NCBI GenBank assembly: GCA_009784335.1
Contig: WRBX01000001.1
Location: forward strand, 1-29,017
From: Oscillospiraceae bacterium
GTDB lineage: Bacteria; Bacillota_A; Clostridia; Monoglobales; WRBX01
DNA: 29,017 bases
Reading direction: 5' to 3'
The notes beneath the pieces were generated by a model. The model had not been told where the DNA came from, did not search any database, and worked only from the letters and a program-made list of their open reading frames with translations. The translations under genes and the position numbers were made by a program. Positions 43 to 27,381 of this stretch are shown here, piece by piece (the stretch's first letter is position 1; each line of letters begins with the position of its first letter).

Positions 43-439
43 AGGAAAAACAATAGGTTGGGCAATCACAGGTTCATTTTGTACCATCCCCGAAATATAT
101 AATGATATAGAGCGAGTTATGGCCGAGGGCGCAAATATCATCCCGATAATCTCGGAAAAAGTGGCGCGCACCGACACACGCGTCGGCCCGGCACATGTAA
201 TCGCCGCCAATTTGGAAAAAGTCACAGGAAATAATGTCATCCGCGATATGAACCACGCCGAGCCAATCGGCCCAAAAAAGATGTTCGATTTGCTTGTTAT
301 CGCTCCCTGCACCGGCTCGAGCATAGCTCGCCTCAATTGCGGCATCACCGATTCATGCGTGCTAATGGCGGCAAAAGCGCACCTGCGCAATAATCGCCCG
401 GTGGTAATCGGGATAAGTACCAATGATGGAACTTATTAA
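35..439 (+). CDS. dpaB: Dipicolinate synthase subunit B, 5' part, interrupted by prophage
   Basis: This is the N-terminal 130 residues of DpaB (SpoVFB), the flavoprotein-like subunit of the synthase that makes dipicolinate in the mother cell during sporulation. Family features seen are the start GWAITGSFCTI, the segments VGPAHVIAANLEKVTG and PIGPKKMFDLLVIAPCTG, and the end VVIGISTNDG. An AGGAGG ribosome site lies just before ATG 35, which overlaps the preceding gene. The family is about 190-200 residues long; here the frame leaves homology after Asn130-Asp131-Gly132 and stops after two phage-encoded residues (Thr, Tyr). The missing 62 residues are encoded at 27370-27558. The truncated product is predicted to be inactive unless the element is excised. 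Confidence 0.94.
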   Translation: MFRGKTIGWAITGSFCTIPEIYNDIERVMAEGANIIPIISEKVARTDTRVGPAHVIAANLEKVTGNNVIRDMNHAEPIGPKKMFDLLVIAPCTGSSIARLNCGITDSCVLMAAKAHLRNNRPVVIGISTNDGTY

Positions 440-454
440 ACACAAAGATTGAAA
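404..454. other. attL, left host/element junction
   Basis: The left part is dpaB coding sequence and the right part is element DNA. GATGG at 425-429 is shared with the right junction (27370-27374), and an AA at 422-423 matches 27367-27368. The element half carries a 25-base arm (430-454) that is the imperfect inverted copy (20 of 25) of the arm at 27336-27360. The dyad made by the two arms is centred on the AA pair, which is the likely crossover dinucleotide for a serine recombinase. The exact crossover base is inferred. Confidence 0.8.
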
Positions 455-461
455 TAAGTTA

Positions 462-537
462 GACAAAAAATCCAATTAGAAATGTTGCATAGACTTTTAA
501 GATATACCTATTATAGTCCTAATTGGAAAATCTTGTC
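462..537. repeat. Long interrupted inverted repeat next to attL
   Basis: TCCAATTAG (471-479) pairs perfectly with CTAATTGGA (519-527), and GACAA (462-466) with TTGTC (533-537), enclosing a 39-base loop. It lies between attL and the recombinase stop. It may be an accessory protein-binding site of the recombination region or part of the recombinase transcript end; no T-tract supports a classical terminator. Confidence 0.5.
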
Positions 538-559
538 AACCTTTTGAACCTTAAAATTG

Positions 560-588
560 TGTAACAATTATGTTACAAAAATGTTACA
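560..588. repeat. TGTTACA palindrome plus third half-site
   Basis: TGTAACA (560-566), a four-base spacer and TGTTACA (571-577) form a perfect 7-bp palindrome. A further TGTTACA follows at 582-588 as a direct repeat. The cluster sits immediately after the recombinase stop codon, on the attL side. The spacing of three half-sites suggests a regulator or accessory-factor binding site; the binding protein is unknown. Confidence 0.5.
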
Positions 589-590
589 GC

Positions 591-2165
591 CTAAAACTGC
601 CAAACTATCTCAATTTGTCGAGAGTTTTTTGAAGTGTCATAAATTCCAACTCTAATACATTCAATAAACTCATCAATAATTTCTCGAGTTAAAACCTTAA
701 TTTGCTTATATTTATTTAATACTTGTGCCCGCTCTGCTTTCTTATCATTCTTATGTTCTAACTTTTTAATTTCTTTATCGAGCCTATCAATAGCCGCCTT
801 AAATGAAATAATATCATTCTCGAAACTCTTATTAAAAGAAATAAACTGTTCCTGTGTAATAATTCCGACAACCTTATCACAATATGATGATTCAACCGCT
901 TTTTCTTTTTGCTCCAACTCTTTTATCAAATCTCTTTTTTGGTGTTGAATAAATTTTATTTGTTTTTCCTCGGCCTCCTCATTAGCTAATTCAAAGCTAA
1001 TCAAATCAGAATTATAGTGTTTTTCAAGAAGTGAATTAATTTCTTTTAAGACAATTCTATTTAGCTCATCTCCATTGAGAGTTTTAACATTATTACATAG
1101 TTCAACTGAACGATAATGAGCAGAACATCTAAAATATGGTTTCATTTCATTTTTAGTCTTATAAAGAGATTTATGTAAAACTTCACCACAACACGAGCAT
1201 AGCAGTTTACTAAAAAAAATATGTTTTAATCCATCCCTTTTGGCCGGTCTTGTTCTTTTCTTTCTAATATCCTGAGCTCTTTCCCAAAGTTCCAACGAAA
1301 TAATAGGCTCATGCGTATTAGGAACTCTTATCCAGTCTTCCATTTTGTTTTTTATTTTTTTTCTATTTTTATAGCTAATAGTTGAAGATTTGCCTTGCAC
1401 AAGCGTTCCAATATAAGTCTCTCTATTAATAATAACAGTAACAGATTCTTTTGACCAAAATATTGATGATGTATTATTTATATAACCTAGTTTTATACCT
1501 TTTGATTTCTTATATGCGGAAGGACTAAGTATTTTCATACGATTAAGTTCTTGAGCAATTAAATGAACTCCCATTCCATCAACATACATATTAAAAATTG
1601 CTTTAACAACTGCCGCCGCCTCTTTATCAATAATAAGTTTGCCTTTGTTATTAGGATCTTTCATATACCCATATGGCGCAAACCCACAACAAAACTCCCC
1701 ATTTCTCTTTTTATGGTCAAGCGTCCGCCTAATATTATCCGATAAATCCTCCAAATACCATTCATTAATCAGCCCGTTAATCTGCCTCGCCTTTTTATTC
1801 CCAATAATGTCCGTGTCAGCATTGTCAACAAGGCTGATAAACCTAATCCCCCACTCATTAAACTTCCCATGTATGTATCGCTCCACCATCTCCATATCCC
1901 GGCTAAACCGGCTCTGCGTCTTGCAAAGTATAATGCTAAACTTCTGCTGCTCCGCCTCCTCAATCATCTTGCACCACTCCGGCCGGTTCCTATCCGCCCC
2001 GGAATAATCATCATCGCAGTAAATCCCATAAATATCCCAAGCCTGCGCCATAGCATAACTAACAAGCATAGACTTCTGATTTTGTATGCTCTCGCTCTCA
2101 TCCCCGGCATTCTTTTTGTTCCTATCCTCATCCGAAAGCCTACAATAAATTGCCACTTTGTTCAT
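591..2165 (-). CDS. Large serine recombinase (integrase/excisionase)
   Basis: This 524-residue site-specific recombinase should integrate and excise the element by a serine-linked double-strand exchange. The N-terminal resolvase-type catalytic domain (about 1-150) has the nucleophile Ser11 in CRLSDED and the arginine-rich SRFSRD motif (85-90). A recombinase DNA-binding domain spans about 160-280, with GFAPYGY at 161-167. A zinc ribbon uses Cys323, Cys326, Cys347 and Cys357. A charged coiled-coil spans about 395-480. Length and layout match SpoIVCA-like recombinases of sporulation elements and clostridial phage integrases. The start ATG at 2165 has GGGGGAG upstream, inside an overlapping small ORF. 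The catalytic-domain DNA is visibly richer in G+C than the rest of the gene, hinting at a mosaic origin. Confidence 0.95.
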   Translation of the reverse strand: MNKVAIYCRLSDEDRNKKNAGDESESIQNQKSMLVSYAMAQAWDIYGIYCDDDYSGADRNRPEWCKMIEEAEQQKFSIILCKTQSRFSRDMEMVERYIHGKFNEWGIRFISLVDNADTDIIGNKKARQINGLINEWYLEDLSDNIRRTLDHKKRNGEFCCGFAPYGYMKDPNNKGKLIIDKEAAAVVKAIFNMYVDGMGVHLIAQELNRMKILSPSAYKKSKGIKLGYINNTSSIFWSKESVTVIINRETYIGTLVQGKSSTISYKNRKKIKNKMEDWIRVPNTHEPIISLELWERAQDIRKKRTRPAKRDGLKHIFFSKLLCSCCGEVLHKSLYKTKNEMKPYFRCSAHYRSVELCNNVKTLNGDELNRIVLKEINSLLEKHYNSDLISFELANEEAEEKQIKFIQHQKRDLIKELEQKEKAVESSYCDKVVGIITQEQFISFNKSFENDIISFKAAIDRLDKEIKKLEHKNDKKAERAQVLNKYKQIKVLTREIIDEFIECIRVGIYDTSKNSRQIEIVWQF

Positions 2166-2307
2166 AATTTTCTCCCCCTAAATAAAAATTTGCATTGCTC
2201 TCGCGTTGCATAACCTTACTGATTTTTTGATTTACAAGCTTCTCAAGCTCACTCTTTTCCATTGTCCGCACCGTATTAATAACCTCATAATAAGCATAAC
2301 TTTTCAT
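2140..2307 (-). CDS. Small 55-residue protein upstream of recombinase
   Basis: ATG at 2307 is preceded by a strong GGGAGGTGA ribosome site. The frame encodes 55 residues beginning MKSYAYYEVINTVRTMEKSE, with a helical charged stretch (ELEKLVNQKISKVMQRE) and no known motif. Its last 26 bases overlap the recombinase start, so the two are probably translationally coupled. Recombination directionality factors are small, poorly conserved and often near the recombinase, so this is a candidate accessory or directionality factor. That role is an inference; I do not recognise the family. Confidence 0.7.
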   Translation of the reverse strand: MKSYAYYEVINTVRTMEKSELEKLVNQKISKVMQRESNANFYLGGENYEQSGNLL

Positions 2308-3121: not shown

Positions 3122-4426
3122 TCAGCTCGCATAAGGATATCTAGCATTCATCTCATTCGCCGTCCTATAAGCCTCCGCCAAAGCCGCCGAATAACTCATC
3201 CCCTGCTCCATCAACACAGCTACAATAGATGATATGCTATTGCGGCTCGCCTCTGCTGCTGAATTTTGAAGTTGCGAAGCCTGTAGCCCTCTATTATAAT
3301 CCCGCTCATCAGCATAAACCAACCTATCATAACCCAAATTCCGAGAAGCCTGAATGGCATCAGCATAATATCTATCATCAACCCTATTTGCATTAAATAA
3401 ATCATTTTGCGCCGTATATCCCCATTTAGCATTAGCCATCTCGCGCGCCGCCGCCTCAGCAATAGCATTCGCAAGTTGAATATCACCCGATTGCCTTGCC
3501 TGCGTTATAGCAAGTTCAATATCATTCATCAGCTTGTCCCGGTTGCCCGCAATCTGCGCCTGCGCTCCTTGAAAACTATTAAGTGCATCAGCTTGAAAAA
3601 AATCACTAACACCGCTCAATCCCAATCTTCCGCCTTGCTGTTCATTCCTTTTCAATGCCTTCATATATTCAAGATATGCCGCACTCCCCGCTTGTTCTGC
3701 CGAAGAAGTCACATTTCCCCTCTGCGCTTCAATCTGCGTCACAGCATTATTAACCGCCGCTCTAATCGCTGCCTCCTGCGCCGCCCTCTGCTCCGCCTCA
3801 ATCCGCCTTTGGTCTGATAAAATGTTATCCAAAGTATTTTGTTGCTGTTGTTGCGCTATCTTATTAGCATAAGTTTGATTAAAATTATTTTGCAATGCTC
3901 CACTATCCACGCTTGAATATGCCCCTAATTGCTCTCTATCCGCCATAGCCTTTTGTGCAGCCGTTAAATCTCCAATAGATAAATAATATTCAATAGCTCG
4001 CCCTACATCACCGCCAAATTGAGAATATTGTGCTCTAATCCCATAAGGGTCAGCCACACTCGCGTCCACCTTCCATGCCTCATTATTAGTAGAAGGCGTT
4101 CCATATAAAGCCCCGCCGCTCGAATTATACCAATTCCCATTATCATATGTAGCGCCTATGCTATTTCCAAGCGTCTGATTTGTAGCCGTAAGCGCCGCCT
4201 GCGTGTTTGAATCAGCTCCGCCCCACGCATTCGAATTTCCCTGCATTTGCGAAATAGTATTGCCGGGATTAAGATGGTCAGTCCGCAATTGCGTCCAAAT
4301 ATTCGCATTATTAGTATCACCGGCCTTGTTGTAATAATCAACAACTCCCTGATAACCGCCCCAATCATAAGCCCCGGCCACATCACCCGAAAGCCCAAGC
4401 TGTGCGCTCGTAAATTTATCAGCCAT
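3122..4426 (-). CDS. Putative virion structural protein, Ala/Gln-rich
   Basis: This 434-residue protein is encoded last in the virion operon. It has a Gly/Asn/Trp-rich N-terminal half with imperfect repeats (AYDWGGYQGVVDYYNKAGDT; QFGGDVGRAIEYYLSIGDL). A long Ala/Gln-rich helical half follows (about 185-330), containing KIAQQQQQN and AEQRAAQEAAIRAAV, then a second helical tail. No enzyme motif is visible. Its place after the giant virion protein and the tail-hub-like protein, and its composition, suggest an internal or ejected virion protein or a tail accessory. The start has AGAGGTGG upstream, and a 29-bp repeat lies in its leader. I do not recognise a named family. Confidence 0.65.
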   Translation of the reverse strand: MADKFTSAQLGLSGDVAGAYDWGGYQGVVDYYNKAGDTNNANIWTQLRTDHLNPGNTISQMQGNSNAWGGADSNTQAALTATNQTLGNSIGATYDNGNWYNSSGGALYGTPSTNNEAWKVDASVADPYGIRAQYSQFGGDVGRAIEYYLSIGDLTAAQKAMADREQLGAYSSVDSGALQNNFNQTYANKIAQQQQQNTLDNILSDQRRIEAEQRAAQEAAIRAAVNNAVTQIEAQRGNVTSSAEQAGSAAYLEYMKALKRNEQQGGRLGLSGVSDFFQADALNSFQGAQAQIAGNRDKLMNDIELAITQARQSGDIQLANAIAEAAAREMANAKWGYTAQNDLFNANRVDDRYYADAIQASRNLGYDRLVYADERDYNRGLQASQLQNSAAEASRNSISSIVAVLMEQGMSYSAALAEAYRTANEMNARYPYAS

Positions 4427-4486: not shown

Positions 4487-6712
4487 TCATTTTTTAACCA
4501 TACTCAGCATTCTCACCCTAATATTAAGCTCATAAATACCAAATGCCGAGTTAATCCTTGAATTTTCTATTTTCAATTGCGCCAATTGCCATTTTCTCTC
4601 TTTTAATTTGCGAAAAACAATGCTCACCTGGTCAAAAGTATTATATGTCATATCAGCATAATCAAAATCCGAATAATCAAAATATCCGGTATTTTGTTGC
4701 TTGTGCTGATTCCAAAATGAGCGATTTGTCCGCACCGATAATCTAACCCACCCGCTCCGAAATGATTTAGTCCAAAGCACATTCCCCTTCTTCTCAAATC
4801 GTTTTAGCACATTAAAAGCACCATAATCATAAAACGGCGTGCAATAATAAGCGTCAATCTTTCGCCCGCAGTTGTTAAAAGCATAAACTCTAAGCTCTCC
4901 ATTGTCAGGATTTTTCACAATATCTGCGTTAATCTTACAAATCAAAATATGTCCGTTATTATTATCCCTTGTAGCAAAATATAAATTATCATCATACGAG
5001 AAAATGCAATCCGCCGCGCTAAATTCACCCCCGCGCATTTCAATATGTAACCCAACCTGATAACTTTGAATTTCACTATCGCTTATCTCGCCTCTATAAT
5101 ATCTCTCAGCCACCTCCGGCCAAACATAAGCATAAACCGGTCTATGCGAAGCCTGCAAATCTATTACAATAACATCACCGTTAAGAACCGCCTGCTCTAA
5201 TATCTTGCCTAAATCAGTAACAATATTTTCTTTCTCTTGCCCGGTGTAATATCCAATATTAGTAATATAAAACCATTCATACTCAATAGATTGGCTGTCT
5301 TGAACCTCGCTCCGCATTCTGCTATCTGCTAAATATAAATTCCCGCTCGGAAATAGCAGGCAGTAATATCCGCGCCAAATGCACGCCTTCGCCTTATGCT
5401 TGTCAGGCTCATTCTTCATCTTTCTATCAACAAAACTGCTACGATGTTGAATGCTTCTCTCCATGCTAACATCAGTTTTTCCAATCGCCTTAACTCCATC
5501 TTTTGTGTAAAATATAGTGTCATCATTAAGTGAGTTTGCAGCGTATCGCGAGCTCGAACCAACTCCCGCAATTCCAACTTTGCCCGGATATTGAATATTT
5601 AAAAAAGTATCATTCATATCAAGCGGCGAATGATAATAAATCATTCCGTCTTGCTCAGTGTCTGCCTTAATTGCACATAGTGTATTATTTCCAACTTTTA
5701 TTAAGTTCATAATCGGGCTTGCGCTGTTTCCGTCAGTAACGCTATTAAGCTCTCCAAAATAACCGGGGCTATTTTCATCACTCCACCTTATTTTATTGTG
5801 CTCTCCCGGATGTCCGGTCAGAAAAATCCTATTATCAAATATTATAATTTCCCTATTCCACCCAATTTTTTCATATTGGTCTTGCATCCACCTCGCCGCA
5901 ATAAATTCAATATTATCAACCCCGGGCATAGCAGGCCCGGGCGGCGCATTAGTAAAAGTAACAGTCCCGTCAACTAAATTAACAGTATAAGCAGTGGTTA
6001 AAACTCCATTTATAAAAACATCCTCAACAAAATCAAGATTTTTTTCCGATAGATGAAAAGTTTTACTATTTCCATCTCCGCGCGCTAAATTCTTAAATTT
6101 GCTTGTCAACATATTCCGCTGTTCATATCTTGAACCTCCACCGAGAGAAGTTCTATTTATATATGTAGTAGGTATATAAACATCAGAGCTTTGTTGCACA
6201 AGTCCAAAACTTGTTCCATCGCAAACATAAAAATAAGCACCGTCAACCATATATAGCTTATTGTTAAAAACAACACTTTTACTATTGTTTTCATAATCCA
6301 TATTAGAATAAATCTCTAAGAAATTAGGAGCAATCGGAGTTTCCCAGTTTTCGGGTTTATTGCATTCATCAAAGTTAGTCCATTCAAAAAACTTTCTTCC
6401 ATGATGAATATAAACTTTTTTAATTTTTTTGTTATAATTGTCTTTATACTCAAAAAAATGTATGCCTCGAACCACATTATTCCCCGACGGCGCGCTGTCA
6501 GTAAAATTAAAATCAGCAATCGCCCGAAACCCGGGAAACATCTGAATGCAATCGCCGTCCGAAAACCAATCGCGATACATATTCTGCATATCAGGCGAGC
6601 GATTATTTTTGCATGTAATGCTCCTAAAATCAACCCCGCGAATGTTTTGGAATTTTTGATTAACAATATTCGGCTTGCCAAGTTTTGGCCGCCTACTCGG
6701 TATAAATGCCAT
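4487..6712 (-). CDS. Putative podovirus tail hub/stabilisation protein (gp10-like)
   Basis: This 741-residue, beta-rich protein begins KLGKPNIVNQKFQNIRGVDF and has repeated short strands with aromatic and Asp/Asn turns (VYIHHGRKFFEW, NKLYMVDGAYFYVCDG, NRIFLTGHPGEHNKIRWSDE, DTIFYTKDGVKAI). Such periodic motifs suggest a beta-propeller-like fold, as in tail-hub proteins of short-tailed phages (P22 gp10, T7 tubular B). The position after portal, coat, connector and giant virion protein agrees. It probably closes the head-tail channel. The family assignment is inferred from pattern and context. GGGAGG precedes ATG 6712. Confidence 0.62.
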   Translation of the reverse strand: MAFIPSRRPKLGKPNIVNQKFQNIRGVDFRSITCKNNRSPDMQNMYRDWFSDGDCIQMFPGFRAIADFNFTDSAPSGNNVVRGIHFFEYKDNYNKKIKKVYIHHGRKFFEWTNFDECNKPENWETPIAPNFLEIYSNMDYENNSKSVVFNNKLYMVDGAYFYVCDGTSFGLVQQSSDVYIPTTYINRTSLGGGSRYEQRNMLTSKFKNLARGDGNSKTFHLSEKNLDFVEDVFINGVLTTAYTVNLVDGTVTFTNAPPGPAMPGVDNIEFIAARWMQDQYEKIGWNREIIIFDNRIFLTGHPGEHNKIRWSDENSPGYFGELNSVTDGNSASPIMNLIKVGNNTLCAIKADTEQDGMIYYHSPLDMNDTFLNIQYPGKVGIAGVGSSSRYAANSLNDDTIFYTKDGVKAIGKTDVSMERSIQHRSSFVDRKMKNEPDKHKAKACIWRGYYCLLFPSGNLYLADSRMRSEVQDSQSIEYEWFYITNIGYYTGQEKENIVTDLGKILEQAVLNGDVIVIDLQASHRPVYAYVWPEVAERYYRGEISDSEIQSYQVGLHIEMRGGEFSAADCIFSYDDNLYFATRDNNNGHILICKINADIVKNPDNGELRVYAFNNCGRKIDAYYCTPFYDYGAFNVLKRFEKKGNVLWTKSFRSGWVRLSVRTNRSFWNQHKQQNTGYFDYSDFDYADMTYNTFDQVSIVFRKLKERKWQLAQLKIENSRINSAFGIYELNIRVRMLSMVKK

Positions 6713-14675: not shown

Positions 14676-14703
14676 AATAATCACCTATTTCTTTCTTTTA
14701 AAT

Positions 14704-17583: not shown

Positions 17584-17597
17584 GAAATTCACCTCAA

Positions 17598-17864
17598 TTA
17601 ATTATCAATGTATTCTTTTTGCCCATCTTGGCTTCCGTTATAACTGTTAATATTTTCAAATAATATTTCCGCATTTATCTCATCAATGGTTTTCTTTTTC
17701 TCAGCTTTTTTTTGCTCCTTTTTATCGCGCTTCAATGTTTTTATTCTTTCGCGTTCAAAGTGCCTGTTCTCATATTCAATTCTTCTTGCATTATGTCCGC
17801 CCATTTCAAACCTCCATTTTTCAACTAATTCGCCATTTTCACTCTTCCAAATAGCAATCTTCAT
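17598..17864 (-). CDS. Small charged protein between terminase and portal
   Basis: This 88-residue protein has an N-terminal segment MKIAIWKSENGELVEKWRFE and a very basic central helix (about 38-60, many Lys/Arg/Glu, KKEQKKAEKKK-like). Its ATG overlaps the terminase stop by four bases, so translation is coupled, and 14 bases separate it from the portal start. It may aid packaging or head assembly. I do not recognise a family. Confidence 0.7.
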   Translation of the reverse strand: MKIAIWKSENGELVEKWRFEMGGHNARRIEYENRHFERERIKTLKRDKKEQKKAEKKKTIDEINAEILFENINSYNGSQDGQKEYIDN

Positions 17865-19240: not shown

Positions 19241-19736
19241 CGGAATCCTGCCCCTCCATTCGAATCGCAAACATATTAAATGCCGAATCAGCCAAAGCGG
19301 CCTGCGCCTTCACGCTCTCATTTTTCAATTTATCCCACGAATCAGGTTTCAAGTTCCTCATTATGAACGAAGTAGCCCGCCAATCAGGAGGCACCCACAC
19401 CTCCCGCTCCACGCGCTTAACTGTTTCCAGCGGTTTGATTTTGCCGGCCTTATCATTCCCGCTAACCTCAACCCTTTCATATTCAATAATTGTCTTGTAA
19501 TATCCCTTTGCCTGCTTAAAAGCCGAAATCTCAATCTCTTTTAAGAGCTCATCACGCCCGGCATTTATAGCCTTAGCAAGACTCACATCATCTTTCTCAT
19601 ATTTTTTAAGTGTCGAAAGTCCGCACCCCATAAGTGCCGCAATCTGCGCTTTTGTGTTTCCATCATAGGAATAAATTCTAATGCGCTCAAGCCCATCATC
19701 AGAAAGCCAATATGTAATATCAAATTTCTTTCCCAT
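19221..19736 (-). CDS. terS: Terminase small subunit
   Basis: This 171-residue protein should recognise phage DNA and start packaging. It has a helix-turn-helix near the N-terminus (about 25-48, KAQIAALMGCGLSTLKKYEK), a central segment AKGYYKTIIEYERVEVSG, the pattern REVWVPPDWRATSFIMRNLK followed by PDSWDK that is typical of this small-subunit group, and an acidic tail. It directly precedes and overlaps TerL, and follows the endolysin gene by 10 bases. Confidence 0.88.
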   Translation of the reverse strand: MGKKFDITYWLSDDGLERIRIYSYDGNTKAQIAALMGCGLSTLKKYEKDDVSLAKAINAGRDELLKEIEISAFKQAKGYYKTIIEYERVEVSGNDKAGKIKPLETVKRVEREVWVPPDWRATSFIMRNLKPDSWDKLKNESVKAQAALADSAFNMFAIRMEGQDSDDDLGG

Positions 19737-19746: not shown

Positions 19747-20460
19747 CTAAATCCTACTAATCATCATTGCAACTTCCTCGCGCGTAGCCCAGCTCTGCGG
19801 CCTTGTTCCATCAGTAATCCCTTGCTTTATATGCTCGTTATATAACCTCGGCTTAAGCCCTCGCTCATAAAGATAATGGTCCATCATTTTTGCAAATTGC
19901 TCGTTAGTCATCTCGTCCTCCTTGTTTTCGATTCTTAAATATTCAAGTATCCCGGCAACTATAGCCGTAGCGCAATAAAACCTATAATCATCACTTTTTA
20001 ATTTACCCAAATCACTGGCGTTATCCATAAATCCAAGCTCACAAAGTATCGCCGGGCATGGAGGATAAACCACCATATGAAACCCCGAATATTTAACTCC
20101 TCTATCTCTCATCCCTGTCTTGCGAATTAAATGCGCCTGCACAAGATTTGCCAATTTATCAGCATTCGTCCCGGGCTTATATGCGAAAGTCTCAATGCCT
20201 GTCCCTCCGCCCGCGTTAGCATGTATGCTCACGCTTAAATCGCATTTCTCAGCCCTTATCATTTGCGACCTATCGGAAAGTCCTATATCATTTTTTCCCA
20301 TAATATCGTCAGTTCTCAGCGTATTTATGCCATATTTTTTAAGTAATTCACAAACTCTAGTTGCCACATCGGAATTGAAGCTCCACTCTCGCATAGTTCC
20401 ATCAGGCGAGCGTTTGCCAGGCGTATTAAACCCATGCCCCGCGTCAATCGCAATTTTCAT
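19747..20460 (-). CDS. Endolysin, N-acetylmuramoyl-L-alanine amidase (Amidase_3)
   Basis: This 237-residue lysin cuts the bond between muramic acid and the stem peptide to release virions. The zinc site is DAGHG (His9), Glu25 and SIHANAGG (His80), and the catalytic Glu141 lies in ILCELGFMDN. After the catalytic domain (about 1-176) comes a short C-terminal region with GITDGTRPQSWATREEVAMM, resembling a single S-layer-homology-like element of clostridial phage amidases. It has no signal peptide, so it depends on the adjacent holin. Confidence 0.95.
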   Translation of the reverse strand: MKIAIDAGHGFNTPGKRSPDGTMREWSFNSDVATRVCELLKKYGINTLRTDDIMGKNDIGLSDRSQMIRAEKCDLSVSIHANAGGGTGIETFAYKPGTNADKLANLVQAHLIRKTGMRDRGVKYSGFHMVVYPPCPAILCELGFMDNASDLGKLKSDDYRFYCATAIVAGILEYLRIENKEDEMTNEQFAKMMDHYLYERGLKPRLYNEHIKQGITDGTRPQSWATREEVAMMISRI

Positions 20461-20475: not shown

Positions 20476-20673
20476 TTAGCTTTTTTTTGAGCCTTCAACT
20501 TCCGGGAGGCCTGTCACACTCGTCAAAAGAGATAAAAATCCGGCCAATAGTGAAGTTGAAACAACAATTTTCCAGTCAACCTCGTGCCAAGCTGCCGTAA
20601 GTCCTATTATTGCAATAGCCGACTGCGCCACAGTTTTTAGCGCCCTAATGCTTGCCGCTCGAATCCAACTCAT
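20476..20673 (-). CDS. Holin, r1t type
   Basis: This 65-residue protein starts MSWIRAASIRALKTVAQ, has two membrane segments (about 13-28 and 33-52) and contains LTSVTGLPEVEG near the end, the pattern of the phage r1t holin family. It would permeabilise the membrane so the amidase reaches the wall. It lies 15 bases before the amidase gene, and its ATG overlaps the stop of the preceding gene by four bases. Confidence 0.9.
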   Translation of the reverse strand: MSWIRAASIRALKTVAQSAIAIIGLTAAWHEVDWKIVVSTSLLAGFLSLLTSVTGLPEVEGSKKS

Positions 20674-20983: not shown

Positions 20984-23551
20984 TTAGAATGTATTTCCGG
21001 TATTAAAACCAAATACTCCGCTAACAGTTGAACCGCTATCAGGAAAATTAGTGTCAGTTGTCCCACTTAAATAACGCCTATTGCAAATGTTACGATGTAT
21101 CATTCTTGCAGATGAGGCGCCTTCGACTAAATAAATATGTGAATTAGCATCTTTATAAACAACCCAGTTAGATTCAATATATTTTCTATAACCACCAAAT
21201 GCAGATATGCAGTTATTCCACGAGGGGTCTATAACACCCGGAATTATAGAATTACGCCGTAATTGCCCGTGTTCTTGCATGCCCATTACAGTCCATTGCC
21301 GTGTTGGTATATCAGAATTTCTTATACCCGGTGCATTTATTATAACCCTGTTATCTTCAAATCTTGCTATATCATAATTCCAAAACCAAACAAATGGTAT
21401 TCCGTTATTCATATTTGTAACATTAAATGTAAAATTAAAATCACAATCAATAACTGCATATTCTCTGATTTTCGTGCCCGCTCCATAATATGTGCCAATG
21501 TTTCCGTTTGCAGTTTCTATTGTTATTGAAATATTATGTTTACATCTTAATATTTTAACAATTAAGTTATTAGGTGTTCCAGCAACTGTGCTAAATAAAA
21601 ATGCGTTAAATACATTATTAGCGCCCCATTGGCTACCACCATCAATATAACAATTGGTAACATTCAAATTTGTTAAAGTATATCCCCTATAATTCACATT
21701 TCCGGTTGTTATAAATTCACAGTTCGAAATATCAATTCCATTCTTTCCATAAAATAACACATCATAACTTGTAGAGCTTTGATTTCCGGTAATATAGAAT
21801 TTACATCCATCAATAGTTGTGCGCAAAATATCCATTCCCGCTCCGGTTGTAACAGCCGGATATTGAGCCATAGAAAAGTGCAAAACAATATGAGAATTAA
21901 GCATAATAAATCGATTAATATATCTAACATCCGGAAGAATAGTTAGTTTGCAATTATCAATAGTTAAATTACCGCCAACAACACCCAAAACTTGCTCAAT
22001 CTTAACACTGCTAAAATTGCAGTTAAAAAAATGCAAGTTTGAATTGCTGCTTTTCACAATAGGAACATTATTGCTTTGAAATTTTATGCCTTCAATAAAA
22101 ACCTTTTCTGAACTGTTAGAAAATAGTAAATTGCAGTTATTAGACATTTGAAAAACACAATCTTCGCCATATATCCTGCCCTTGATAATCTTTGTTTGAT
22201 TATCTCCTGTTTGAGTTAAGTTATAAGTGCCTCTGCGAAATATAATATCTCCGGTAAAACCGTTCGGCACAAAGTCAAAAATCTCTTTTAGTGTTATAGT
22301 TGTGCCATTGTATAAAATATCGCAGTTTTCAGCTATATCACCCTCATTTTCATTACCAACAATAATTGTGGCAGTTCTAAGACATTTCCCGCTCCCTCCA
22401 CCTGGAGGAGGGTTCACAGGAGAATAAACTCTCTGATTATTATCATAAACTCCGTCATTAGCCGATATATTGTCAATTTGAGCCGTCCATTTATTAGTCG
22501 AATTATTTCTTTCAATCTTGTTTTTACCAGCGGCGTCAAAATTAATAGCATTATTAACATTGATAAAATTAGAAACAAAAGCCGCCGGCACTTCTAAACT
22601 ATCGTTCATTTTAACTTTTTTACTAAAAGAGTTATCACCGGTAAAAGTATTGTTTCCGGATAAATAAACATCCCCGCCGCCACCACCGCTAATAACATTA
22701 GTTTCACCGGTCATAGGAACACCGTTATATTTAGGCCGATTGCTCAAATCATCAAAATTTGAAGTGCCGCCTCCCCCACCAATAGGATTTCCGTTATATG
22801 TAGGCTGTCCTCCGCTCTCGCCAAATTTATCAAGCACCGCCTTATTCTGATGAGTATGTATCTCGTTAAATTTTGCCGCAGTTAAAATTCCCGGTTCAAA
22901 AGCGTTAGCCTTTGGTATGTTTTCCCAAAAATTATTAAATCCACTATCAATTACAGGATTTTTATATCGGAAATTGTATCTTAAATTATCTCCTGAAACA
23001 GTAAACACTTTGTCAGGGTTAAAAAGAATATCACCATTAACAGTTGATTTATCAAGTTTATTTTGAAATTCTTGAAATTTTGCCGCAGTTAATATCCCGG
23101 ATTGCAAAGTAGATGAAATAGGTAATCCAGAACCTAATCCTTTTGGCTCATTCGTGACTGGATTTAACCATTTTATTGAGTATTGCACGGCATTTGGATT
23201 ACTGCTAAATGTAATATCAGTAACAAAATCTAAATTAAGATTACTAATTAAATTCTGCACATCCTGCCTAATTTCATCATCTTGCGCTTTAAGCCAATCA
23301 ATCCCATCTTGCAAGCTCTGCAAAGCTCCGCTATCAGGATTTATAATCTGTAATTCATTGGCAGAAAAATCAGGCGACATCAAGTAATTAATAACTCCGT
23401 TCACTTGCCCAATTGCAACACCAAAAACAGCAACATAATCAAAAAATGCTTTTAATTGGCTCGCCGTCATCTGCGGCCTATCAGGCTGCTCACTATGTAA
23501 ATGCCCCGAAAAGCTCGGCTCATCTCTCAAAAAATCCGATAATTGTGCCAT
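20984..23551 (-). CDS. Tail fibre/receptor-binding protein with beta-helix
   Basis: This 855-residue protein is probably the host-recognition fibre. The N-terminus (1-60, MAQLSDFLRDEPSFSG) is likely the virion anchor. GILTAAKF occurs twice (near 153 and 221), suggesting repeated modules. Gly-rich linkers (PIGGGGG, SGGGGGDV) flank a GNNTFTGDNSFSKKV element. From about 400 on, short repeated beta turns with Asn and Cys (GIKFQSN, NLHFFNCNF, NLTIDNCKLT, ISNCEFITTGN) indicate a right-handed parallel beta-helix. The end is NFPDSGSTVSGVFGFN plus a short tail. GAGGTGA precedes ATG 23551, and a 29-bp repeat lies upstream. It is placed before the lysis genes, not after the other tail genes. Confidence 0.82.
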   Translation of the reverse strand: MAQLSDFLRDEPSFSGHLHSEQPDRPQMTASQLKAFFDYVAVFGVAIGQVNGVINYLMSPDFSANELQIINPDSGALQSLQDGIDWLKAQDDEIRQDVQNLISNLNLDFVTDITFSSNPNAVQYSIKWLNPVTNEPKGLGSGLPISSTLQSGILTAAKFQEFQNKLDKSTVNGDILFNPDKVFTVSGDNLRYNFRYKNPVIDSGFNNFWENIPKANAFEPGILTAAKFNEIHTHQNKAVLDKFGESGGQPTYNGNPIGGGGGTSNFDDLSNRPKYNGVPMTGETNVISGGGGGDVYLSGNNTFTGDNSFSKKVKMNDSLEVPAAFVSNFINVNNAINFDAAGKNKIERNNSTNKWTAQIDNISANDGVYDNNQRVYSPVNPPPGGGSGKCLRTATIIVGNENEGDIAENCDILYNGTTITLKEIFDFVPNGFTGDIIFRRGTYNLTQTGDNQTKIIKGRIYGEDCVFQMSNNCNLLFSNSSEKVFIEGIKFQSNNVPIVKSSNSNLHFFNCNFSSVKIEQVLGVVGGNLTIDNCKLTILPDVRYINRFIMLNSHIVLHFSMAQYPAVTTGAGMDILRTTIDGCKFYITGNQSSTSYDVLFYGKNGIDISNCEFITTGNVNYRGYTLTNLNVTNCYIDGGSQWGANNVFNAFLFSTVAGTPNNLIVKILRCKHNISITIETANGNIGTYYGAGTKIREYAVIDCDFNFTFNVTNMNNGIPFVWFWNYDIARFEDNRVIINAPGIRNSDIPTRQWTVMGMQEHGQLRRNSIIPGVIDPSWNNCISAFGGYRKYIESNWVVYKDANSHIYLVEGASSARMIHRNICNRRYLSGTTDTNFPDSGSTVSGVFGFNTGNTF

Positions 23552-23614: not shown

Positions 23615-23886
23615 CATTTATCCCAATTTTCATAAAATTTCTTTCGCGCCCGCTCCAAAGTCTTTTCGCTACAAGGGCATTTCATGCTAGCCGAAATAAT
23701 AGAATCACCCTTAGTCATAACTCTAAATAACCAATAACCATATTCCCCGCCGCAAGAAGCACTCAAATTTATTATTTTTAGCTTAATATCATAAGGTTGG
23801 TCACGAAAATCAAGGCAAGTCGCCTTTATAAGCACCTGCTTATTCTTTGGAATATTCACCGAGCGCAATATCTTATATCCCATCAT
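23614..23886 (-). CDS. Small protein after Rep, unknown function
   Basis: This 90-residue protein starts MMGYKILRSVNIPKNKQVL and contains Cys24, Cys45 and a CPC pair in SMKCPCSEKTLERARKKF. Its ATG overlaps the Rep stop by four bases, so it is translationally coupled to Rep and may help replication. It is the last gene of the early operon before the fibre leader repeat. I do not recognise a family. Confidence 0.7.
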   Translation of the reverse strand: MMGYKILRSVNIPKNKQVLIKATCLDFRDQPYDIKLKIINLSASCGGEYGYWLFRVMTKGDSIISASMKCPCSEKTLERARKKFYENWDK

Positions 23887-24914
23887 TCCATCCTTTTAAG
23901 CCGGGCATATATCCAATAACCGCCGAAATATTCATTAGTCCGCACCTCAGGAAACCCCACAAGCTCATAGCCGGGATAATTCTGCGCAAACCACGCATAG
24001 CAATATTGCTTGTCATTTGCTATCTTGCCGGCCGTCCGCTTGCCAGCTTTCCTATCGCGCATCTTCGCTGATTTGTGCGGCATATGTAAATTCCTCGAAT
24101 GTGTAAAAGATTTCTCATATTCCTTCTTGTATTTATAGTCCTTCGATAAATATCCCGCTAATCCATAAAGCTTGTCCGGCACAACAAACTTCGCACTATT
24201 AGAGCGCCCAAACTTCCAAAAAGCCTGCACAATTTCCGTGTTAGGAAAGTTAATCACTAAATGATGATGAAAGCGCTCATTCTCTGATTGTTCAACCACA
24301 AGCAAATATTTAATAGCCTCCATCGGCGCCGATAAATTTTGCGCCAAATAAAAAGCGATAGTGTTAAAATTCCCCTTAATTCGCTTTCCTTGTTCATATT
24401 CTTTTAATGCTTGTAAAAATGTTATGTAGCTTATCTTTGCCGGTTGCACTTGCAAAAAATCAATCTGCATAAGCTCCCAAAAATATTCATTCACCCGCTC
24501 CGCTAGGCGCACCATCCGCTTTTTATAACTCTCAAAATCTCTGTATGCTTGCTTATAATCCTGCGGCAAGTGCCTATTATCATAAGTCAGCGTAGCCCAC
24601 ACATTGCTAAAATGATAGAAGTTAGCATGCAAAAGCTGTGAAAATAACCGTTGGCGATTGCGCTGATTGATTTTCCTCTGCGCCTCCCCGGTCTTTTTCC
24701 GCTCCCGCTCCTTATTGTATTCCTTGCGCATGCCATGCGCAGGCATTGGATATATATCAGCCTCAAGAATTTGCCCGCAAGTCGTCTCCTTCACCCTGTA
24801 ATTACTTATATTTCCCGAAAGTGCCTCATTGCGCGCAAATTGCTCCCCCTCATATTCATAATCAAATATATTGCTCGGGTTATAATCAGCCCCTCGGCGC
24901 AAAGGTTTCACCAC
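23883..24914 (-). CDS. HUH-type rolling-circle replication initiator (Rep)
   Basis: This protein of about 343 residues should nick the element's origin and start rolling-circle replication. Motif 1 is VWATLTYD (105-112). The HUH metal motif is in RFHHHLVINF (His216/His218). The tyrosine motif is GLAGYLSKDYKYKK (Tyr255 as likely nucleophile, Lys258 nearby). A basic segment with SFTHSRNLHMPHKSAK follows, like small phage and plasmid Reps. The start is GTG 24914 or GTG 24911; AGAGGGGAG lies rather far upstream (about 14 bases). It is the only replication protein recognised in the element. Rep of this size is more usual in ssDNA phages and plasmids than in tailed phages. Confidence 0.8.
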   Translation of the reverse strand: MVKPLRRGADYNPSNIFDYEYEGEQFARNEALSGNISNYRVKETTCGQILEADIYPMPAHGMRKEYNKERERKKTGEAQRKINQRNRQRLFSQLLHANFYHFSNVWATLTYDNRHLPQDYKQAYRDFESYKKRMVRLAERVNEYFWELMQIDFLQVQPAKISYITFLQALKEYEQGKRIKGNFNTIAFYLAQNLSAPMEAIKYLLVVEQSENERFHHHLVINFPNTEIVQAFWKFGRSNSAKFVVPDKLYGLAGYLSKDYKYKKEYEKSFTHSRNLHMPHKSAKMRDRKAGKRTAGKIANDKQYCYAWFAQNYPGYELVGFPEVRTNEYFGGYWIYARLKRME

Positions 24915-24946: not shown

Positions 24947-25126
24947 CTAAACTCTACCAGCTATAAGAATTAGGCATTTCTTAATTTCTTCCAACTTCTC
25001 AACAATATTCTCAGTTCTCAAAAGCTCACGCCTAAGATTCCAAAGCTCTTCATCGCAATTTATCTTCCCCCGGCACTCGCACCTTCTCTTTGGCCATCCA
25101 CAATTCTTGCATGGCTTATACATCAT
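24947..25126 (-). CDS. Cys-rich mini-protein (59 residues)
   Basis: This frame starts at ATG 25126 (or the adjacent ATG 25123) after GAGGAGTGAGG and overlaps the end of the upstream gene by 11 bases. It opens MMYKPCKNCGWPKRRCECRG, with Cys6, Cys9, Cys16, Cys18 and Cys24 as probable zinc ligands, followed by a charged helix. It ends 32 bases before the Rep start. Its function is unknown; it may be a nucleic-acid-binding or adaptor protein of the early operon. Confidence 0.7.
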   Translation of the reverse strand: MMYKPCKNCGWPKRRCECRGKINCDEELWNLRRELLRTENIVEKLEEIKKCLILIAGRV

Positions 25127-25325
25127 TCCTCACTCCTCTGCAAGCAGGACATTTAACGAATTTTCCTATACTCCATCCATAAGTCCTTAATGCTGTTTTA
25201 TATCGTTCTGCCGTCCACGATGCTATGTTATTTGCTGTAATATCTCCACTATGTCCTACTTCTGTGCAATTACAAATATCACAAGTGCATGCCCACTCTT
25301 GATACCTGTTATTAGTAAATCCCAT
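25116..25325 (-). CDS. Cys-rich mini-protein (69 residues)
   Basis: The ATG at 25325 shares one base with the upstream stop (TAATG) and has TGGAG about 10 bases upstream. This is preferred over an ATG 30 bases earlier. The product starts MGFTNNRYQEWACTCDICNC, with Cys13, Cys15, Cys18 and Cys20, and ends KCPACRGVRNDV with Cys59 and Cys62. The two clusters flank a helix (ASWTAERYKTALRTYGW), the layout of a single zinc-binding domain. No known function. Confidence 0.72.
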   Translation of the reverse strand: MGFTNNRYQEWACTCDICNCTEVGHSGDITANNIASWTAERYKTALRTYGWSIGKFVKCPACRGVRNDV

Positions 25326-25585
25326 TATTCCACGCTCCAATCTAATTTTACCCAACTCGGTTTATATTCCTCTAAATGCCTAATTAAATCGTTAATCGCA
25401 CATTTTTGACACCTGCTACACATTTCTTGAATATTCATTGCCCAAAATGGCTGTCCGTCATATATATTCATATAAATAATTAGTGGTTTTTCGTAATTAA
25501 GTTTGATTTCCATTCCGCTTGGGGTGTCTAAAATTGCCATACATTGTTTGCAATACTCCTCGTTTTTCCATTTATCTTTGCTCAT
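25325..25585 (-). CDS. Cys-rich mini-protein (86 residues)
   Basis: This 86-residue protein has CKQC (Cys12, Cys15) and CSRC plus a further Cys (56, 59, 62) around a beta-rich centre (EIKLNYEKPLIIYMNIYDG). The ATG overlaps the upstream stop by four bases with GAGTGAGG before it. Its second CxxC and the C-terminal LDWSVE recall the QRIDWSEE end of the preceding gene. It is probably a zinc ribbon of unknown function. Confidence 0.72.
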   Translation of the reverse strand: MSKDKWKNEEYCKQCMAILDTPSGMEIKLNYEKPLIIYMNIYDGQPFWAMNIQEMCSRCQKCAINDLIRHLEEYKPSWVKLDWSVE

Positions 25586-25836
25586 TCCTCACTCCAATCA
25601 ATGCGCTGTCCGCAACTAGGACAAAAATTGCAATTATTTTTATCTATTGCAATCCATAATCCCTCATTACCACAAGGGCAAGTTGGCGTTCCATTTATAT
25701 TTATCGGCTTAACCGTAATTTGTTTTTCTAATGCCCATTTTGATATATCGTTAGATTTTTTTAAGTTGGCATTTGGTGTTGAAAGCACATTTATCACACG
25801 AGCATTTTTAATATCGTCTTGTGTATAATCAATCAT
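25582..25836 (-). CDS. Zinc-ribbon mini-protein (84 residues)
   Basis: This product starts MIDYTQDDIKNARVINVLST and ends with TCPCGNEGLW (Cys53, Cys55) and NFCPSCGQRIDWSEE (Cys72, Cys75), a clear zinc ribbon. ATG 25836 is chosen because it overlaps the upstream stop by one base (TAATG). A GTG nine bases further up is part of the GGTGGAG site. The CPSCGQRIDW ending is common in small clostridial phage proteins, whose role is unknown. Confidence 0.74.
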   Translation of the reverse strand: MIDYTQDDIKNARVINVLSTPNANLKKSNDISKWALEKQITVKPININGTPTCPCGNEGLWIAIDKNNCNFCPSCGQRIDWSEE

Positions 25837-25970
25837 TATCTCCACCGCCTTATCCTTCTATTTAACCAATAAACCCAATAAATCAATCCTGTAATAACAA
25901 AAATAACTACTCCTAAACAACAAGCTGAAAAAAACAATACAAAAAAACAATCTAATACTAAATCAATCAT
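25836..25970 (-). CDS. Small membrane peptide (44 residues)
   Basis: This short frame encodes a very hydrophobic peptide starting MIDLVLDCFFVLFFSACC, with one or two membrane spans and ending with a basic tail (NRRIRRWR). Its stop shares one base with the next start, and its start lies inside the end of the 20-residue frame upstream. It fits the continuous overlapping series of the early operon. Function unknown. Confidence 0.6.
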   Translation of the reverse strand: MIDLVLDCFFVLFFSACCLGVVIFVITGLIYWVYWLNRRIRRWR

Positions 25971-26025
25971 TATTCCACTCCAATCTCTGCCCACAGCAAT
26001 AACAATAAATTTTTTCTATCCTCAT
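25963..26025 (-). CDS. Very small Cys-rich ORF (20 residues)
   Basis: An ATG at 26025, with AAAAGGGAG upstream, opens a 20-codon frame containing CYCCGQRLEW. The ending closely resembles CPSCGQRIDW of the 84-residue protein, as if only one half of a zinc ribbon were kept. It overlaps the next gene by eight bases. It could be a real micro-protein or a degraded remnant. Confidence 0.42.
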   Translation of the reverse strand: MRIEKIYCYCCGQRLEWNND

Positions 26026-26026
26026 T

Positions 26027-26143
26027 TCATACACTCCCTTTTGAGAACAACCATTTCTTTGCTCCTTTTTTAGAATCAAACATAAATAAAAAGATAAAAC
26101 CTATCGCGAGGGGATTTGAAAACGCCGCTCCGCTCGTTTTCAC
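26027..26143 (-). CDS. Possible small membrane peptide (38 residues)
   Basis: GTG 26143 opens a 38-codon frame with a hydrophobic span (NPLAIGFIFLFMF) and a basic end (KKGAKKWLFSKGSV). It ends one base before the next ATG. A second frame, in phase with it (26245-26147, 32 codons, MKSICFFGLVICINL start), lies upstream beyond a TGA. Together they may be one gene broken by a stop. The ribosome sites are weak. The stretch 26026-26258 holds nothing else that I can support. Confidence 0.33.
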   Translation of the reverse strand: MKTSGAAFSNPLAIGFIFLFMFDSKKGAKKWLFSKGSV

Positions 26144-26258
26144 CCCTCACACTCCCCAAACTTTCCCCACCAACCACTCAACCCTATCCTTCGTGGCCGT
26201 TAAGTTAATACATATTACAAGCCCAAAAAAGCAAATGCTTTTCATATTTCAAAAATGC

Positions 26259-26492
26259 CTATATCAATGCTCTTTTAGTCCTTAGCTCTGCCTTGAAATC
26301 TCTCTCTCTCTGCCTGTCAAATTCCTTGCGCTCCCGCCTGCGTTTTTCATAGTGCGCCCTGGTGCGCCTATTTTCCAAAACAGTAATGTCAAATGCCTTA
26401 TAAATCACATATCCAATCGCAAAACCCACAATCCCAAAATTCAAAGCCACTTGCCACATAGCCTGCAAAATCAAATAACTATTCGCTAACAT
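26259..26492 (-). CDS. Small membrane protein with basic cytoplasmic tail (77 residues)
   Basis: The frame starts MLANSYLILQAMWQVALNF, has one membrane span (about 12-32, ending GYVIYKAF), and then a strongly charged tail rich in Arg/Glu (about 38-77). ATG 26492 has AGAGAGGAG upstream and overlaps the end of the preceding gene by 14 bases. The longer open frame upstream has no ribosome site. Function unknown; it might be an early membrane-associated effector. Confidence 0.68.
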   Translation of the reverse strand: MLANSYLILQAMWQVALNFGIVGFAIGYVIYKAFDITVLENRRTRAHYEKRRRERKEFDRQRERDFKAELRTKRALI

Positions 26493-26772
26493 GCTTTTTC
26501 TCCTCTCTGAGCAAACTTGCGCCGCAATGGTCGCAAAACTTTGCGTCGGTATTGATATCAAAATCCTTGCCGCAATCGTTGCAATAAATCTTTTCATTCG
26601 CCGGGGAATAATCTCCTTGTCCGTGAACCTCAATTGAAATATGCGAAAACGGATGATGAAGGCTACATTGGCAACACTTCCACGCAATAACTCGCGTCAT
26701 TTCGTCATTTAGCACACTCTGAAACTCCATGCTCGCACAATTCGGATTCCTGCACTTAATCTCTTTTTTCAT
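26479..26772 (-). CDS. Multi-zinc-ribbon protein (97 residues)
   Basis: This protein starts MKKEIKCRNPNCASMEF and carries four Cys pairs: Cys7/Cys12, Cys33/Cys36, Cys64/Cys67 and Cys80/Cys83. They would form two zinc ribbons, the second being YCNDCGKDF and FCDHCGASLL. ATG 26772 overlaps the upstream stop by four bases and has GAGGGG upstream. Such double ribbons bind nucleic acid or protein partners; the exact role is unknown. Confidence 0.76.
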   Translation of the reverse strand: MKKEIKCRNPNCASMEFQSVLNDEMTRVIAWKCCQCSLHHPFSHISIEVHGQGDYSPANEKIYCNDCGKDFDINTDAKFCDHCGASLLREEKKHVSE

Positions 26773-27002
26773 AAGCTTGTCCCCTCGTCTCCGCCGCATA
26801 ATAGGCATTCCTTGCCCTTCTCATGCCACCAATTGCATAAAGGGCACTTCACAATCCGAAGCCTAAGTTCGTTTAGGCACTTCGGGCAGTCAGCCGCCAC
26901 ATCCTTAAACATCCCACTAAGCCCTTGCTCTCCCATTTCCGCAAGCTCTTTGTAAATTTCCTCCTTGCGCTTTAATTCTTGATACTCTTGCCTCGCGTCC
27001 AT
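26769..27002 (-). CDS. Multi-zinc-ribbon protein (77 residues)
   Basis: An N-terminal coiled-coil helix (MDARQEYQELKRKEEIYKEL) precedes three CxxC pairs: Cys39/Cys42, Cys53/Cys56 and Cys66/Cys69, with NWWHEKG between the last two. AGGAGG lies nine bases before ATG 27002. It is followed directly by the 97-residue zinc-ribbon gene. Function unknown. Confidence 0.78.
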   Translation of the reverse strand: MDARQEYQELKRKEEIYKELAEMGEQGLSGMFKDVAADCPKCLNELRLRIVKCPLCNWWHEKGKECLLCGGDEGTSL

Positions 27003-27033
27003 AGCTTTTTCCTCCTATTTTTATTTCCCCCAA

Positions 27034-27195
27034 CTATTTCCTTTTTCTAAACTTGTCGGCCTCCGGGCAAGTCGCAAAATGTGTTTGCTTTAATTCATTA
27101 AAATTCATCGGCATAAGCTTTCCATTTTTCGTCTTAACCCAAAAAATATCTTCACCACAGGCCCGGCACTTCGCCCTTCCCAAATTTTCTTCCAT
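27034..27195 (-). CDS. Zinc-finger mini-protein (53 residues), first gene of the early operon
   Basis: The 53-residue product has CRACG (Cys10, Cys13), FWVKTKNGKLMPM and HFATC (His39, Cys43), a C2HC-type finger pattern seen in small phage proteins. GAAAGGA lies about eight bases before ATG 27195. It is the rightmost gene of the minus-strand early operon, preceded by a 14-bp inverted repeat. Thirty-one bases separate it from the next gene. Confidence 0.74.
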   Translation of the reverse strand: MEENLGRAKCRACGEDIFWVKTKNGKLMPMNFNELKQTHFATCPEADKFRKRK

Positions 27196-27215
27196 CGAAT
27201 ATATCCTTTCACTAA

Positions 27216-27254
27216 ATAACGGAACTGCCCCCTCTAGTTAGGCAGTTCCGTTAT
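27216..27254. repeat. Perfect 14-bp inverted repeat in early-operon leader
   Basis: ATAACGGAACTGCC (27216-27229) is the exact inverse complement of GGCAGTTCCGTTAT (27241-27254), with an 11-base spacer. It lies just upstream of the first early gene. No T-run follows on either side, so an operator or a leader RNA hairpin is more likely than a terminator. A weaker GCGG/CCGC hairpin follows at 27257-27268. Confidence 0.75.
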
Positions 27255-27278
27255 CAGCGGCGCACCGCAAATTAACAA
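27250..27278 (-). promoter_or_regulatory. Weak candidate promoter for the early operon
   Basis: Minus-strand TTGTTA (27273-27278), 17 bases, GATAAC (27250-27255) is the best match I find upstream of the early genes. Its -10 box would overlap the inverted repeat 27216-27254, making that repeat a good operator position. Both boxes are poor matches to the consensus. Confidence 0.25.
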
Positions 27279-27335
27279 AAATATAACTAGAGGAGTATCA
27301 AAAAAAACCGGTCATTTCTAACCGGATTTCATAAC

Positions 27336-27381
27336 TTTCAATATTTGGTTTTAACTAGTTCCGTGAAACGATGGCCTATCC
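27336..27381. other. attR, right element/host junction
   Basis: The left part is element DNA with the arm 27336-27360, an imperfect inverted copy (20 of 25) of 430-454. The right part is dpaB coding sequence. The shared GATGG is at 27370-27374, and the likely crossover AA at 27367-27368. Across this junction the dpaB frame is closed by TGA at 27364-27366, so the 3' fragment cannot be read from the element side. Confidence 0.8.

Follow-up and report, generated by a model that had tools for sequence, protein, structure and literature searches.

The 29,017-base stretch of DNA analysed here (the window) contains a temperate phage of 26.9 kb (425-27369), its genes mostly on the minus strand, inserted within the coding sequence of the dipicolinate (DPA) sporulation gene dpaB. 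The insertion separates the codons for Asn130 and Asp131 (STN/D), and in silico removal of the phage (35-424 joined to 27370-27558) restores the reading frame exactly, giving a protein of 192 residues with no internal stop, as expected of a sporulation-gene intervening element. The arrangement suggests a prophage in active lysogeny, one that is probably, if not assuredly, excised in the mother cell to restore the gene.

The joined protein is recognized as DpaB by two profiles, scoring 245.7 bits with TIGR02852 (spore_dpaB; cut-off 229) and 276.3 bits with NF006161 (cut-off 156); the fragment alone reaches 158.6 bits, under the TIGR02852 cut-off, and 180.3 bits, over the laxer NF006161 cut-off. 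The left open reading frame (ORF; 35-439) encodes DpaB residues 1-130, then Asp-Gly from the core shared by the junctions, and ends with Thr-Tyr and a stop. That core, AA[T/C]GATGG, is found at 422-429 and at 27367-27374. As both junctions share it, the crossover is not pinned to one base, and Asn is encoded whichever codon is used. In the nearest uninterrupted homologues, P0001 (87%) and P0002 (83%), the residues across the joint, STNDGLSTNARNIGDLLNKKN, are identical to those of joined DpaB. The original prediction, that the prophage is a removable intervening sequence in dpaB with these coordinates, this frame and Asn encoded by either codon, is borne out by the rejoined sequence. Full-length DpaB cannot be produced from this copy of the gene as long as the prophage sits in it, whereas recombination of attL with attR would return an uninterrupted gene. 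The host sequences and junctions are as follows.

1-42, plus strand: probable last codons of dpaA (IDKIIEEEGAQNV, then a stop at 40-42), an open frame overlapping the dpaB start; its identity is judged from the usual gene order
35-424, plus strand: 5' part of dpaB, residues 1-130 (TIGR02852/NF006161 match; PF02441)
425-439, plus strand: run-on of the 5' open reading frame, Asp-Gly-Thr-Tyr-stop
422-429: left junction core AATGATGG (attL), from the sequence
27367-27374: right junction core AACGATGG (attR), from the sequence
27370-27558, plus strand: 3' part of dpaB, residues 131-192 and stop (rejoined frame; TIGR02852/NF006161)
27656-28663, plus strand: host asd, aspartate-semialdehyde dehydrogenase (TIGR01296 and NF011456, over cut-off)

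Among the genes of the element is one for a site-specific recombinase, a large serine recombinase (LSR), which lies about 165 bases away from the left junction. The start of this gene is overlapped by a short ORF, which we guess to be a recombination directionality factor (RDF) or a regulator.

591-2165, minus strand: LSR (integrase), 524 residues, with Resolvase, Recombinase, Zn_ribbon_recom and DUF4368 domains; phrog_95
2140-2307, minus strand: 55-residue ORF with a sequence like a ribosome-binding site; no family match (2140-2316)

Under the mechanism we propose, the host is an uncultured clostridium and the temperate phage would integrate at the Asn-Asp codons of dpaB by means of its own LSR. 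Excision would be confined to the mother cell, with the forespore keeping the prophage, and would be set off when the integrase, or some RDF, is expressed. DPA synthesis takes place in the mother cell late in sporulation (PMC5629000). Since that cell is terminal, excision there would cost neither the spore nor the prophage. That this phage is excised, at what time and by what trigger, is inferred from the position of the insertion, from the known cases (skin in sigK, vfbin in spoVFB, SPbeta in spsM and gin in gerE) and from the repeated splitting of dpaB in clostridia.

The last of these emerged from searches of clostridial genomes with DpaB. A class-wide draw of 391 genomes gave 304 matched genomes, 221 with a dpaB-grade score, and two draws by order comprised 345 genomes (293 matched) and 344 (254 matched, 165 dpaB-grade); the three draws overlap slightly. 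Genomes with intermediate scores, 18 from the class draw and 20 from the order draws, were searched again. Nine of the 18 have an interrupted dpaB (G244, G263, G351, G179, G105, G156, G223, G232 and G128); the others end at contig ends (G060, G308, G315), have a frameshift-like break (G386) or internal stops (G211), or are whole (G255, G269, G321, G397). Among the 20, five are interrupted (G441, G457, G846, G874 and G832), 11 are whole, three reach contig ends (G459, G637, G624) and one is frameshift-like (G683). Together with three genomes added from the full 22-genome order of G179, dpaB is interrupted in 17 genomes (9 + 2 + 3 from the draws, + 3); in 11 of them the two halves share a contig, and in six the case is one-sided or the parts are on separate contigs (G223, G413, G415, G874, G128 and G832; in G832 the C part follows foreign sequence with no recombinase). 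These counts are minima, as breaks near residue 14 would escape the screen. The breaks fall at about six positions, mostly adjoining LSR genes of several lineages, and are given below in residue numbers of the window.

Site A, about residue 14: G441 and G457, deduced because the N end has been replaced there next to recombinase sequence, the first codons not being located
Site B, 93/94 (APCT/GNT): ten genomes, the core seen in nine
Site C, about 106: G457
Site D, about 113: G232, G846, G874 and G832
Site E, 130/131: the window and G457
Site F, about 152-157: G441 and G128

The inserts differ widely. At site D, G846 carries a 45.9-kb insert judged by eye to be a tailed prophage (L166-L168), which rejoins in frame, and G232 one of 5.6 kb (genes by Pfam); the G441 insert is 8.8 kb with a relaxase-like gene, and the G457 island at site E is 15.9 kb with restriction-modification-like genes (both by eye). 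The dpaB gene of G457 (L163, L164) is divided into three or more pieces spread over two contigs, and a serine recombinase gene precedes each of three pieces. All rejoined cases with both sides are in frame, namely six of six at site B, G232 and G846 at D, G457 at C and E, and G441 at F; the exact crossover among the shared bases was picked by eye, and the G441 site F register is one of three possible. In G128 (L139-L142, L149-L152) three serine recombinases lie in tandem on the contig that holds the N part of dpaB, and other contigs carry three dpaB 3' ends that differ from one another but have similar left arms, perhaps from mixed species in one bin. Group II introns, considered as a source of the inserts of about 3 kb, were unsupported; in 18 loci, whose inserts were covered partly, only one tRNA reached the gathering threshold, and recombinase genes were found instead.

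When 21 recombinases from these loci and the window were compared, those of site B were mutual nearest, as were those of site D (38-42%), and the two from site A were 92% alike over 228 residues. The correspondence between recombinase type and site fails at F, where the G441 and G128 enzymes are not mutual nearest. Nearest to the window integrase among the 20 others is a pair of LSR genes that closes the right end of the G457 site-E island (34%, E 9e-52); its identity to seven recombinases of sites B and D is 20-29%, and the LSR at the left end of the G457 island is nearest to a site-A recombinase. One recombinase lineage may therefore have used the Asn-Asp site in two elements that differ greatly.

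Evidence that a split dpaB can be maintained comes from site B. The insert there measures 2.6-4.0 kb and encodes an LSR and, in all eight loci that extend far enough, a RelA/SpoT-domain protein, recognized by Pfam in two loci and by similarity in the others. In the order of G179, ten of 22 genomes carry this element (seven complete, L132-L137 and L155; three at contig ends and partial, L143, L156 and L157). Six are uninterrupted at site B, one of which reaches only residue 125 and one of which is frameshift-like, and six have no dpaB match. Lutispora thermophila and another Lutispora (G078, G282) belong to this order, and both are uninterrupted. The L132 recombinase has 369 residues compared with 470-525 in the others. 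Across the six complete site-B genomes first analysed, identities are 41-75% for the recombinase, 49-80% for the RelA/SpoT-domain protein, 63-88% for dpaB and 70-90% for lysC, and all four give the same closest groupings. A search of these six genomes showed no second dpaB; apart from the halves it gave weak matches, mostly to longer CoaBC-like frames. The ratio of non-synonymous to synonymous substitution rates (dN/dS) of rejoined dpaB in the four closest pairs is 0.094, 0.055, 0.045 and 0.051, and that of the neighbouring lysC is similar, at 0.082, 0.036, 0.051 and 0.045 in the same pairs; dS is 0.67-1.9 in these pairs and saturated in most deeper pairs, and only finite values are quoted. 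Rejoined site-B dpaB is under purifying selection across diverged species. The simplest reading is that the split gene has been vertically inherited and still works, and hence that the element would be excised, as selection to keep a split dpaB is hard to explain otherwise.

Not all of the evidence favors an excision programme in the phage of the window. The window is one isolated virus record without an attached host genome. A scan of the window for sigma-E and sigma-K patterns gave no convincing sporulation promoter: a loose sigma-E-like box precedes the integrase operon, its pattern being common in the window (42 matches compared with 24.5 expected from simple shuffles), and the sigma-K-like pattern has one match compared with 4.6 expected. 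Family searches of the submitted ORFs named no RDF or repressor, the small ORFs at 24947-27195 lying mostly outside those searches. The pattern of attP and attL was found in none of the other viral contigs, and none of the 20 loci matched in viral contigs by an alignment of the integrase (A3) has dpaB. The integrase as a single query matched no viral contig, and DpaB gave 138 pattern matches in viral contigs, none genuine; in the phages collection, five unannotated contigs have one dpaB place (at least 80% of the query), none of them split.

These results could be explained by ordinary lysogeny, in which the phage uses a convenient attB, lysogens sporulate rarely or make DPA-poor spores, and excision occurs by normal induction only. 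The phage modules look complete, so that the insertion needs no developmental role, no developmental promoter or RDF is identifiable in the window, and nothing in it is specific to the mother cell. However, ordinary lysogeny does not account readily for a dpaB split at about six positions in other genomes, and purifying selection on the site-B gene implies that elements of that family are excised, with no such implication for this phage. We regard ordinary lysogeny as the most serious competitor to mother-cell excision, yet an unlikely one.

The remaining points against active lysogeny concern the integrase. Its DUF4368 domain (PF14287, 26.3 bits, cut-off 25) is typical of multi-target LSRs, being present in 63% of the multi-target clade and in 0.73% of site-specific LSRs (PMC10083194). 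A TndX-like multi-target enzyme may thus have landed in dpaB by chance. Relatives of the integrase at E 1e-60 or better were found in 154 of 382 class genomes, with at most three candidates scored per genome, and the best 30 loci (31-51% identical) were inspected, the flank being scanned with hidden Markov models (HMMs) for 17. They sit in many different genes, and none is in dpaB. Besides a spore-gene piece, which nine of the 30 adjoin, the neighbours include D-Ala-D-Ala carboxypeptidase, subtilase, PRK06851 proteins, purF, a copper-binding protein and an AraC-type regulator.

The nine pieces, which score under full-length NCBIfam cut-offs as expected of fragments, are of four genes. Pieces of cwlD adjoin L172, where the other piece is at the far end of the element and the break is DAGHG/G, and L193; dpaA adjoins L195, and pdaB adjoins L192 and, by motif only, L196. 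A Mn-catalase, which we take to be of the CotJC type, adjoins L173, L175, L176 and L186. The same catalase is present at four of the 20 viral loci, recognized by Pfam in L086 and by eye in L087, L088 and L091; an NCBIfam scan of L087 and L091 gave no match. In L173, L175, L176, L186 and L086 the start or end of the catalase fragment falls near profile position 147-151. A CotJC-like gene also lies beside prophage phi027 of Clostridioides difficile (PMC11222575). Three loci may be described further: in G200 (L203, L205) cwlD is split at the DAGHGG motif, one half beside an LSR 51% identical to the window integrase; in G100 (L195, L225) dpaA ends at PGGVDF beside an LSR gene, with a full dpaB a few kb away on the same contig; and at viral L099:7591-7824 a short cysteine-rich ORF without a family match lies beside an LSR.

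As a control, 19 loci were taken from the next few dozen rows (28-35% identical, a range that overlaps that of the best 30; ranks 31-40 excluded), with 14 flanks scanned by HMM. None has a clear spore-gene fragment and two are ambiguous, L207 adjoining a truncated collagen-like protein, possibly of BclA type, and L208 a peptidoglycan-binding/SleB-like fragment whose best NCBIfam match, a weak one, is SleB; at L209 an intact spoIIID is 0.77 kb from the LSR. Fisher's test gives p = 0.008 with the control at 0/19 and p = 0.16 with the control at 2/19. The spore-gene cases do not track closeness to the window integrase, as they make up 5/21 loci at 36% identity or more compared with 4/9 at 31-34%. 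Enrichment for spore genes among the relatives is therefore a lead, unproven.

A chance landing by a low-specificity enzyme nevertheless appears distinctly improbable. The separate G457 island, which carries the nearest recombinases of the compared set, occupies the same codon pair; attP rebuilt from both ends is symmetrical, with an inverted repeat matching at 17 of 26 positions around AA, equalled in 15 of 5000 shuffles; and nine of the best 30 relatives adjoin spore-gene pieces, even if the contrast with the control is insecure. Finally, an assembly chimera or a decaying pseudogene, conceivable for a metagenomic virus record whose right junction is in one contig only, is very improbable, given that the phage interior was independently assembled in a second virus record (L153, a 9,704-base interior fragment, 99.99% identical), that a partial, 99%-identical integrase variant is on a separate 1,989-base contig (P0121), that both dpaB halves are open and rejoin exactly, and that the 134-residue left-junction product (P0003) is on two contigs, possibly two copies of one record.

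Apart from P0121, the integrase relatives among the matches listed are at most 53% identical. Head, packaging and lysis modules accompany the integrase, as in a temperate tailed phage. The phage is probably podovirus-like. Its portal is P22-like, and several large proteins are unnamed. The terminase comes nearest to a human faecal phage contig without annotation (51%) and next, among phages with names, to those of Pelagibacter, such as HTVC033P (38%). The replication protein is of the HUH/G2P type, to our knowledge an unusual combination with a tailed prophage. Pfam and PHROG matches support the head, packaging, lysis and Rep genes, in keeping with the apparently intact prophage with an HUH Rep of the original prediction. 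The remaining phage genes are as follows.

3122-4426, minus strand: phage protein (ORF), 434 residues, no family match
4487-6712, minus strand: phage protein (ORF), 741 residues, no family match
6798-13136, minus strand: 2112-residue protein with a MuF_C domain (PF18819)
13845-14684, minus strand: major head protein (phrog_267, 5.8e-32)
15715-17592, minus strand: P22-like portal (phrog_156, 8.6e-12; PF16510 under its cut-off)
17861-19270, minus strand: terminase large subunit (phrog_2, 1.4e-39)
19221-19736, minus strand: terminase small subunit (phrog_309)
19747-20460, minus strand: endolysin, Amidase_3 (PF01520; phrog_435)
20476-20673, minus strand: holin (PF16945; phrog_443)
20984-23551, minus strand: 855-residue protein, by guess a tail fibre or spike (weak match to the unnamed phrog_7946)
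23883-24914, minus strand: replication initiation protein, HUH/G2P type (PF23343; phrog_3584, 6.8e-40)

The MuF_C protein has an additional DnaJ-like match under the cut-off of that family. GC content is 49% in the left host flank, 40% in the insert and 45% in the right flank. Of 544 dpaB loci in the genome collection, the best 80 reach only 50-61% identity, and so the host lineage seems to be absent from that collection. Asd of the window has a match in 25 of 25 genomes, the best full-length one at 64%, and G017 matches at 86% over 28 residues in a contig-edge stretch. The host is likely a clostridial spore former, placed no more precisely, which is in keeping with the clostridial type proposed at the outset.

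Programmed gene rearrangement in spore formers is represented by a handful of cases, mostly in Bacillus. To these may be added one gene that different elements interrupt, at several codons, across many clostridia, with one version kept by selection. Late sporulation genes, dpaB above all, might serve as a safe harbour for serine-recombinase elements across Clostridia, a generalization that we find attractive and still somewhat doubtful. Under this scenario, several recombinase lineages would independently have come to use conserved dpaB codons as attB, relatives of the window integrase would use cwlD, the cotJC-like catalase gene, pdaB and dpaA, hosts would tolerate the insertions because mother-cell excision is the rule, and the RelA/SpoT element would be a stably inherited, skin-like part of dpaB in the Lutispora order. 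Why phages occupy mother-cell genes becomes a testable comparative question. Genomes scored as lacking DpaB may carry dpaB in pieces, and the split dpaB elements offer natural pairs of LSRs and att sites.

Among titles and abstract openings of the open-access literature, with most subscription papers outside it, none concerned a split dpaB in Clostridia, a dpaB element with a RelA/SpoT gene or LSRs favouring spore genes. The DUF4368 multi-target clade resembles the window integrase in domain content; that report left this clade out of its analysis of target-gene enrichment and, in the available part, names competence genes, not spore genes, as enriched targets of other LSRs (PMC10083194).

The analogy with skin and vfbin drawn in the original prediction is supported by the literature (PMC4191935, PMC10747680, PMC5595907). 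Closest is vfbin of Bacillus weihenstephanensis KBAB4, a phage-like insert in the same gene (spoVFB = dpaB; PMC4191935, PMC10747680, PMC5595907), which is excised during sporulation by a recombinase expressed specifically at that time (PMC5595907). However, vfbin is described as the now particle-defective descendant of a prophage in Bacillus (PMC4191935), whereas the phage of the window is apparently complete and in a clostridial-type host. SPbeta of Bacillus subtilis is an active prophage that likewise occupies a mother-cell gene, spsM, uses a serine recombinase and restores the gene precisely; it differs in gene and host, in having a known RDF, SprB, and in its experimental proof (PMC4191935). 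The sigK skin of C. difficile shares with the window the clostridial host class and an LSR, and is excised in the mother cell through an RDF under sigma-E and SpoIIID, but is in another gene, is a prophage-like element of 19 genes and has a known RDF (PMC5025042). In gerE of Bacillus cereus ATCC10987, gin is also a serine-recombinase element in a mother-cell gene that is restored in sporulation, but it is a 28.6-kb non-phage island with three recombinases (PMC5595907). Sporulation controls different components in these systems: the RDF in C. difficile skin and SPbeta, whose recombinases are constitutive, and the recombinase itself in B. subtilis skin, vfbin and gin (PMC5595907). The concept is already known, as is dpaB as a target in Bacillus (vfbin), and the wider clostridial pattern is the more interesting result.

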